The notes beneath the pieces are model-generated. The model was not told the origin of the DNA, did not search any database, and was given only the letters and a program-made list of their open reading frames with translations. 9,684 nt of DNA from Candidatus Eiseniibacteriota bacterium (GTDB taxonomy: Bacteria; Arandabacterota; Arandabacteria; JAGLYR01), in contig JAGLYR010000106.1 in assembly GCA_023132135.1 (NCBI GenBank), forward strand, positions 1-9,684, given 5' to 3'. Below, piece after piece: positions 740-4,975 of the stretch (position 1 is the first letter of the stretch; every line of letters starts with the position of its first letter). The position numbers and the translations under genes were made by a program.

Positions 740-748
740 TTTTCCACA
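740..748 (+). promoter_or_regulatory. DnaA box (TTTTCCACA)
   Basis: The 9-mer TTTTCCACA fits the relaxed DnaA-box consensus TTWTNCACA exactly and differs from TTATCCACA at one base. It lies 38 bases after the dnaA stop and faces a second box (755-763) head to head across 6 bases. The two make an inverted repeat, TCCACA-ctactc-TGTGGA. Confidence 0.7.
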
Positions 749-754
749 CTACTC

Positions 755-763
755 TGTGGACAA
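755..763 (-). promoter_or_regulatory. DnaA box (TTGTCCACA on the minus strand)
   Basis: The + strand reads TGTGGACAA, whose reverse complement TTGTCCACA has one mismatch to TTATCCACA. It is the right arm of the inverted pair with the box at 740-748. Confidence 0.6.
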
Positions 764-833
764 TCTCTTGGCATCTCCTCCATCCTGTGCTCTATCCAAT
801 CCTCTATTCACTTCTTCTCCCCACACGCCTGTC

Positions 834-842
834 TTCTCCACA
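834..842 (+). promoter_or_regulatory. Possible DnaA box (TTCTCCACA)
   Basis: TTCTCCACA has one mismatch (third base) to TTATCCACA. It lies within the C/T-rich tract, where CCACA-type strings are likelier by chance, so support is weaker. A further weak candidate, TCTTACACA, lies at 864-872. Confidence 0.4.
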
Positions 843-923: not shown

Positions 924-932
924 TCATCCACA
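924..932 (+). promoter_or_regulatory. DnaA box next to the trio array (TCATCCACA)
   Basis: TCATCCACA has one mismatch (second base) to TTATCCACA. It is followed by a 12-base C-rich spacer and then the trinucleotide array at 945-959. The order and orientation are those of a DnaA box in a basal unwinding system, which makes this box more credible than its sequence alone would. Confidence 0.6.
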
Positions 933-944
933 TTTCCCCAGCCC

Positions 945-959
945 CTACTTCTACTACTA
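945..959 (-). promoter_or_regulatory. Putative DnaA-trio array (5 trinucleotides)
   Basis: The + strand reads CTACTTCTACTACTA. Read 3' to 5', the minus strand is GAT GAA GAT GAT GAT. DnaA-trios are described as repeated 3'-[G/A]A[T/A]-5' triplets bound by DnaA as single strand, next to a GC-rich patch and a DnaA box. All five triplets fit, and four are the preferred GAT. The array starts 12 bases after the box at 924-932, with a C-rich spacer in between and more AT-rich DNA following. Confidence 0.65.
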
Positions 960-1016
960 GCTTAAAGCTAGCTTAGAACCAGCCAAAATCTAAAGCCTTC
1001 ACTCCCTTAAATCTGA
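957..1016. other. Moderately AT-rich candidate unwinding segment with CTAGCTTA repeats
   Basis: By hand count 36 of 60 bases are A/T, against about 40-45% in the genes. It begins with two copies of CTAGCTTA (957-964 and 968-975, period 11). Overlapping them is a short inverted repeat, TAGCTT-a-AAGCTA (958-970). Its position directly after the trio array suggests it is where the duplex first opens, but its AT content is modest for such an element. Confidence 0.4.
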
Positions 1017-1264: not shown

Positions 1265-1314
1265 CCCGTGCTGAGACACAGGGCCGCGCAAGATGCTACC
1301 CAGTAGAAGCTGGG
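1265..1314. repeat. Two short hairpins closing the structured block
   Basis: CCCGTG (1265-1270) pairs with CAC-a-GGG (1277-1283) with one bulged A and a 6-base loop. CCCAG (1299-1303) pairs with CTGGG (1310-1314) around a 6-base loop. They follow the hairpins at 1093-1190 and 1208-1238, so a run of four helices ends exactly where the AT-rich block begins. Each helix alone could arise by chance. Confidence 0.35.
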
Positions 1315-1390
1315 ATTAATATATAAACAGGTAATTATTTAAATATTAAAACCCCTTTTTTATATAACCATTTCGTAATATATATATACA
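1315..1390. other. Strongly AT-rich block
   Basis: By hand count 64 of 76 bases (84%) are A/T, far above the surrounding DNA. It contains the palindrome TATTTAAATA (1336-1345) and a TA-alternating run at 1376-1388. Candidate roles are a duplex-unwinding element, an UP-element or promoter-rich region, or a protein-binding spacer. The sequence does not choose between them. Confidence 0.6.
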
Positions 1391-1449
1391 GACCCACCAG
1401 GAGGAAGAGGTCTTCAACAATGTCCTGATAATCATAAGAGGAGGAAGTG

Positions 1450-1632: not shown

Positions 1633-2745
1633 ATGAAATTCACGTTAGCGCAGAAGGACCTGGTGCAAGCCATAGATACGGTTGTAGCTGTGGTACCGCC
1701 TAAGAGCACTCTCCCGGTGCTTGCCAATGTGCTGGTTCGCGCTGCTGAAAACACCGTGTCATTTCGGGCCAGCGACCTCGACATCTCAGTGGTCAATCAG
1801 GTCAATGCGGATGTGGCGGAAGAGGGAGAGGTAACTATTCCGGCCCGGCGTTTTCATGAGATTGCAAGGGAGTTGCCGGGGCAGAATGTGAATGTGGCGG
1901 TGAGTGCGGAACAGATCGAAATCTCGTGTGGCGCCAGTACGTTCAAACTGATGGGAATGAAGGGGGAGGACTTCCCAAGCCTCCCTTCTCTTGAGGAACC
2001 GCTGGAATTTTCCATCCCTGCGGCAAGTCTCCAAAGACTGATTCGAAAGACAAGCTATGCGGTGTCCTCTGACGAGACGCGGGGAGCACTGAATGGTGTT
2101 TTCTGGGAGATTGAACCGCAACAGATGAGCATGGTAGCAACCGATGGACATCGCCTGGCGCGCCTTGTGGTGAAGGGAAAGTTCGAAACAAGCGATGCAC
2201 TGAATGCCATTATTCCTCCGAAGGCCTTGGGTCAGATAGTGCGGATTCTGGGAGGCTTTGATGGGGACGTGAGTGTCTCCCTTGGAAAAAACTACGTTGC
2301 TTTTCGCATGGCATCGGCGGAAGTCCATGCCCGTATACTCGAAGGACCGTTTCCAAAGTACCAGCAGGTTATTCCCAAAGACAATGACAAGCGGGTGATA
2401 GTTCAGAGAACAGGACTGGTCGCCGCAATGCGGCGCGTGGCAATCCTGTCCGATGCGCTGACGCGTCAGGTGCGGCTGCACCTGGAATCGGGACACATGG
2501 CGTTGGGAGCGAGAGCCGCCGATGTCGGGGAAGCAACAGAGGGAATAGAGGTCGACTACACGGGCGATGAGCTCAAGATAGGCTTCAATGCCTCGTACCT
2601 GCTGGACGCGTTGCGCCACATGGATGGGGAATCCGTTGCTATGTCTCTCAAGGGCCCGGTGGGGGCAGGCGTGATAGAAGAAACTAGCGGACTGGAAAAT
2701 GAAGAATACCTCTGTCTGGTTATGCCTCTCCGGTTGGCTGAGTAG
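1633..2745 (+). CDS. dnaN: DNA polymerase III subunit beta (sliding clamp)
   Basis: DnaN forms the ring-shaped dimer that encircles DNA and tethers DNA polymerase III and other replication and repair proteins. The 370-residue length is normal for the family and accommodates the three repeated clamp domains. Family landmarks include the N-terminus MKFTLAQKDLVQAIDTV, LPVLANVLV with SDLDISV in domain 1, MVATDGHRLARLVV in domain 2 and the C-terminal VMPLRL, which matches the usual VMPMRL ending that lines the peptide-binding pocket. The ATG is preceded by SD GAGGAGG (1621-1627) with a 5-base spacer, so the start is secure. It is probably the first gene of a long unit continuing through DUF721 and the gyrase genes. 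The + strand is strongly G-rich here (25 G against 8 C in 1861-1920), consistent with leading-strand placement. Confidence 0.97.
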   Translation: MKFTLAQKDLVQAIDTVVAVVPPKSTLPVLANVLVRAAENTVSFRASDLDISVVNQVNADVAEEGEVTIPARRFHEIARELPGQNVNVAVSAEQIEISCGASTFKLMGMKGEDFPSLPSLEEPLEFSIPAASLQRLIRKTSYAVSSDETRGALNGVFWEIEPQQMSMVATDGHRLARLVVKGKFETSDALNAIIPPKALGQIVRILGGFDGDVSVSLGKNYVAFRMASAEVHARILEGPFPKYQQVIPKDNDKRVIVQRTGLVAAMRRVAILSDALTRQVRLHLESGHMALGARAADVGEATEGIEVDYTGDELKIGFNASYLLDALRHMDGESVAMSLKGPVGAGVIEETSGLENEEYLCLVMPLRLAE

Positions 2746-2754
2746 GGGTGTTGC

Positions 2755-4975
<2,221 letters not shown>

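Follow-up and report, generated by a model that had tools for sequence, protein, structure and literature searches.

Our analysis points toward positions 924-959 as the basal unwinding system (BUS) of the chromosome origin (oriC), very probably a known device in a new lineage. The assignment draws on the observed sequence, orientation, phase and conservation of a unit made of DnaA boxes and DnaA-trios (Table 1). The window, that is, the whole stretch of 9684 bases that was analyzed, carries the 3' part of dnaA followed by dnaN, the DciA gene, gyrB, gyrA, hflX and a DUF72 gene. From this gene order we infer that the 931-bp gap between dnaA and dnaN (702-1632) is oriC. The gap contains a change in GC skew, as computed within the window. 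At 702-1010, the plus strand is C/T-rich, with a strong pyrimidine bias ahead of the trios, and the composition turns from C-rich to balanced shortly 3' of them. A search of the gap for known structured RNA families gave no Rfam match at gathering thresholds, and no tRNA or tmRNA was found there. The lineage is a deep one: DnaN is 41 to 50% identical to the nearest DnaNs found, and in a DnaN tree it sits on a long branch close to Eisenbacteria, Zixibacteria, its class-mates and Gemmatimonadota, a placement that is poorly supported. Seven other genomes made up the same-class comparison set.

Table 1. Features of the origin region and its flanking genes in the window
Feature	Positions	Strand	Remarks
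dnaA, C-terminal 232 codons	3-701	+	5' part lost at contig edge
Distal DnaA box TTTTCCACA	740-748	+	1 mismatch
Distal inverted DnaA box TTGTCCACA	755-763	-	1 mismatch; inverted upstream boxes in relatives too
Weak distal box TTCTCCCCA	815-823	+	2 mismatches
Distal co-oriented DnaA box TTCTCCACA	834-842	+	90 bp upstream of box 1
Predicted BUS DnaA box 1, TCATCCACA	924-932	+	12 bp before trios; 1 mismatch to TTATCCACA
Predicted BUS DnaA box 2, degenerate, ATTTCCCCA	932-940	+	3 mismatches; 4 bp before trios; shares one base with box 1
GC spacer GCCC	941-944	+	Between box 2 and trios
Five DnaA-trios, CTACTTCTACTACTA on plus strand	945-959	-	Strand predicted to be bound: 3'-GAT GAA GAT GAT GAT-5'
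AT-rich tract	1314-1393		Least stable stretch of window; possible second or rival unwinding element
dnaN	1633-2745	+	Sigma-70-like promoter TTGACA-18-TAAGAT at 1534-1563
DciA gene	2755-3060		Directly after dnaN

A preliminary description of this DNA had placed a box at 924-932, a spacer at 933-944 and trios at 945-959, and its letters and coordinates are exact, including the minus-strand reading of the trios (3' to 5', 945-959). Its overall span of 924-975 holds from the box through the trios (924-959); 960-975 lies outside the trio array. Box 1 starts 223 bases past the dnaA stop, and the trios start 688 bp ahead of the dnaN start. The published rules for a BUS search ask for a box with up to 2 mismatches, no more than 16 bp from there to the first trio, three or more trios and, for a second box, up to 4 mismatches (PMC8287927). 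In the window, the box is co-oriented with the trios, has 1 mismatch and lies 12 bp from the first of five consecutive strict trios, whose central adenines are on the strand opposite the box top strand. The tandem second box, which is not required, is present at 932-940 with 3 mismatches and in a conserved position. Order and orientation, which had been likened to those of the Bacillus subtilis origin, agree with these rules, and so does the spacing.

The same description took the 12 bases between box 1 and the trios (TTTCCCCAGCCC, 933-944) for a C-rich or GC-rich spacer. Only GCCC (941-944) is the true spacer; the rest belongs to a second box that had been missed. This view follows from the two preferred box-to-trio distances in relatives, 12 and 4 bp: among 22 dissimilar loci, boxes with up to 3 mismatches were found at spacer 12 in 12 loci, at spacer 4 in 10, and at any other spacer in 0 to 3. 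The 12-bp "spacer" is hence mostly a second, degenerate box, followed by GCCC. The Eisenbacteria counterpart of box 2 is ATTTCCACA, and its position is kept in relatives. Tandem boxes are present in 57% of origins, the stronger one upstream, with a box-to-trio distance that peaks at 10 to 13 bp and a GC spacer of 4 bp on average (PMC8287927), and a cryo-EM structure has two DnaA molecules on two tandem boxes from which they proceed onto the trios (PMC10721633).

Since the plus strand is pyrimidine-rich ahead of the trios, chance was measured locally. The window has a single unit of a box with up to 1 mismatch, a spacer of up to 16 bp and five or more strict trios; neither 8000 dinucleotide shuffles of 702-1632 nor 20000 shuffles of the pyrimidine-rich stretch 702-1060 produced one. 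Five consecutive trios without the box requirement arose in about 0.15% of shuffles. Chance is no explanation for the box and trio unit. That the trio run arose by chance from the C/T-rich strand at 702-1010, or is a functionless simple (CTA)n repeat, is scarcely credible: the composition speaks for it, but the shuffles of that very stretch speak against it, as do a position, an orientation and a phase that are common to distant relatives despite diverged flanking DNA.

Conservation of the box-trio geometry in dnaA-dnaN gaps, which had been proposed as a check on the preliminary reading, was indeed found, and over long distances; the relatives compared are all distant, none being from the same genus or family. 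A recognizable unit is present in all eight Eisenbacteria genomes in which dnaA and dnaN are adjacent (L033-L037, L138, L140 and L141, the last being the most divergent), with TTGTCAACATTTCCACAGCCCCTACTACTACTACTA in Eisenbacteria versus TCATCCACATTTCCCCAGCCCCTACTTCTACTACTA in the window and DnaA proteins that are 53 to 79% identical. Among the four same-class gaps compared (L003, L004, L005 and L006), L003 has TTCTCCACAAATTCACAGTGTCTATTTCTACTTCTACTA and L006 has TGATCCACAATTCCACCGCCCCTACTACTATTACTA, L005 also has the geometry, and L004 has a weaker array, CTACTGCTA, behind its boxes. The geometry recurs across Gemmatimonadota. In some other Eisenbacteria (L031, L032, L129 and L131-L134), no dnaN occurs within 1.5 kb of dnaA; for L031 and L032, the two genes are more than 2 kb apart, with a BUS-like unit on the dnaA side.

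A test independent of the boxes was done on 98 gaps that were anchored on trio runs alone. At the strict setting, 33 of the 98 gaps gave an anchor, all 33 on the plus strand, and about two thirds gave none; at a looser setting, the tandem geometry fits only 45 of 98. In the 22 dissimilar loci, with the window left out, conservation upstream of the anchor is concentrated at -21 to -13 and -13 to -5, which correspond to a pair of DnaA boxes that overlap. From the 25 positions that precede the trios, a profile was trained with the window excluded and then scored on both window strands (~19,000 positions); its top-scoring match among all 9684 bases was 920-944, with 16.1 bits compared to 12.8 for the next. 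These results support the 12/4 box-to-trio geometry as an old and strongly kept feature.

In our model, DnaA would assemble on the tandem boxes at 924-940, with assistance from the distal boxes (740-842), and would be handed over the GCCC spacer to the minus strand at 945-959. The filament may then extend toward dnaN, capturing two bases (mostly G-A) per trio, and the duplex opened at the trios could serve for helicase loading. DnaA binding, melting and helicase loading at 924-959 are modeled on B. subtilis and other species. In B. subtilis DnaA, the trio bases or the strand are reported to be held by Glu183, Asn187, Ile190, Ile193, Arg202, Lys222 and Glu228 (PMC10721633). An alignment against these residues revealed that DnaA of the relative L034 keeps every one of them. 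The DnaA fragment in the window starts at the equivalent of Glu223 and retains Glu228 and the helix-turn-helix; the N-terminal part with the initiator-specific motif was sought in the genome's own assembly and is absent from it. The DciA protein encoded immediately downstream of dnaN may plausibly act as a partner in helicase loading.

In B. subtilis, an additional box located 44 bp or more upstream is required (PMC6669920). A co-oriented distal box is located 110 to 113 bp upstream in five Eisenbacteria gaps (L033-L037) and 76 to 96 bp upstream in class-mates, and inverted boxes lie farther upstream of it. DnaA boxes close to dnaA can also be regulatory, and the boxes and trios might mainly control expression of dnaA or dnaN by DnaA binding and not open DNA at all. 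We consider this most improbable: the boxes sit after dnaA and ~600 bp ahead of the dnaN promoter, and we are not aware of any role of trios in the control of transcription.

The preliminary description had also called the unit a specific opening site. Order, orientation, spacing and conservation support this, but the unit was taken as the sole site despite the less stable DNA at 1314-1393. No other 80-bp stretch of the window comes close to the instability of this AT-rich tract (z about 6), and the cumulative GC skew, computed within the window, reaches its minimum at 1398; hence, melting might spread to the tract or even begin there. The duplex at and just 3' of the trios has only mild instability, and 355 bp separate the trios from the tract. 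Between the two, at about 1099-1310, is a dispersed repeat of ~210 bp with four copies in the genome (in the window and in L112, L113 and L114) that are 89 to 90% identical and differ in their ends. It is absent from the seven class-mates, has a strong RNA fold (z = -6) around a long hairpin at 1110-1185 and gave no Rfam match. We regard it as a mobile or repeat element within the origin region.

Taken together, instability, skew minimum and the intervening repeat would fit an origin that opens first at the AT tract, as in an Escherichia coli-like DNA unwinding element (DUE), with 924-959 as a mere DnaA binding site or a relic left after insertion of the repeat. However, an E. coli-type DUE is an unstable AT element flanked by DnaA boxes, and no box with up to 2 mismatches is present near 1314-1393. 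Moreover, the trios and boxes of the window are intact, and the Eisenbacteria gaps examined have no far AT tract; their AT core directly follows the trios. First opening at the tract thus appears improbable, and since the tract has no strong DnaA box nearby, we keep the BUS at 924-959 as the main site. It is also conceivable, although we think it rather unlikely, that the origin has been split: the repeat may have landed in oriC and left the trio site and the AT melting tract 355 bp apart, whereas relatives are compact, often with trios that face each other on both strands. If so, either the trio site alone suffices or two separate melting sites are in use.

A perfect inverted repeat following the trios, at 957-971 (CTAGCTT-A-AAGCTAG), was considered as a general BUS element and rejected: over 36 loci, the mean score was 5.3 compared to 4.6 in shuffled sequences, p was ≤ 0.05 in only 3 of the 36, and the window itself gave a p of 0.11. 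A few Gemmatimonadota (L089, L096 and L078) have longer palindromes at this place, with no general enrichment.

Trios facing those of the BUS were observed in related phyla. Of 26 dissimilar loci with BUS geometry, 9 had opposite-strand trio runs in the 60 bp past the array at p ≤ 0.05 by shuffling, where ~1.3 were expected. In five Eisenbacteria gaps, the mirrored run is accompanied by an inverted DnaA box 70 to 71 bp from box 1, and both are conserved about as well as the BUS. Mirrored runs were seen in L034, in the gaps of L033 and L035-L037 and also in L031, L032, L081 and L084. Downstream of the array in the window, neither mirrored trios (score of 0) nor a box was detected, the nearest box on the minus strand having 3 mismatches. 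Both helicases could be loaded at such face-to-face trios, which would bear on loading of the second helicase where the DnaD route of B. subtilis is absent. We found no description of mirrored trios in the open-access papers searched.

A BUS has been predicted in 1755 of 2070 bacterial origins (PMC8287927), and our data extend the predicted BUS to a lineage without a studied origin and provide concrete coordinates at which this origin can be tested. The accessible part of that paper does not name the lineage. The window conforms to its search rules, has the stronger box upstream and, with 12 bp, a box-to-trio distance inside the peak of 10 to 13 bp; it differs in its boxes, which overlap by a single base, compared to a gap of 0 to 3 bp there.

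The BUS of B. subtilis (DnaA boxes 6 and 7 and the trios; PMC6669920, PMC10721633) shares with the window the co-oriented tandem boxes, the short GC spacer, trios that are mostly GAT with one GAA, the upstream distal box and the location in the dnaA-dnaN gap. B. subtilis has six trios (CTACTATTACTTCTACTA, PMC10201434) compared to five strict ones in the window, whose boxes overlap by one base (an 8-bp step; the box sequences were compared by description) and whose trios are not directly followed by an AT-rich run. The Eisenbacteria gaps have the same box pair, spacer and trios, and a distal co-oriented box in all five that were scanned (L033-L037), but their array is immediately followed by an AT core and, often, by mirrored trios with an inverted box, neither of which the window has. 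In oriC of Thermotoga maritima (PMC10316083), TAG trio repeats are likewise present and are bound by DnaA as a single strand, although its DnaA box is a different one (AAACCTACCACC, PMC6669920) and its TAG module is spaced (eTrio).
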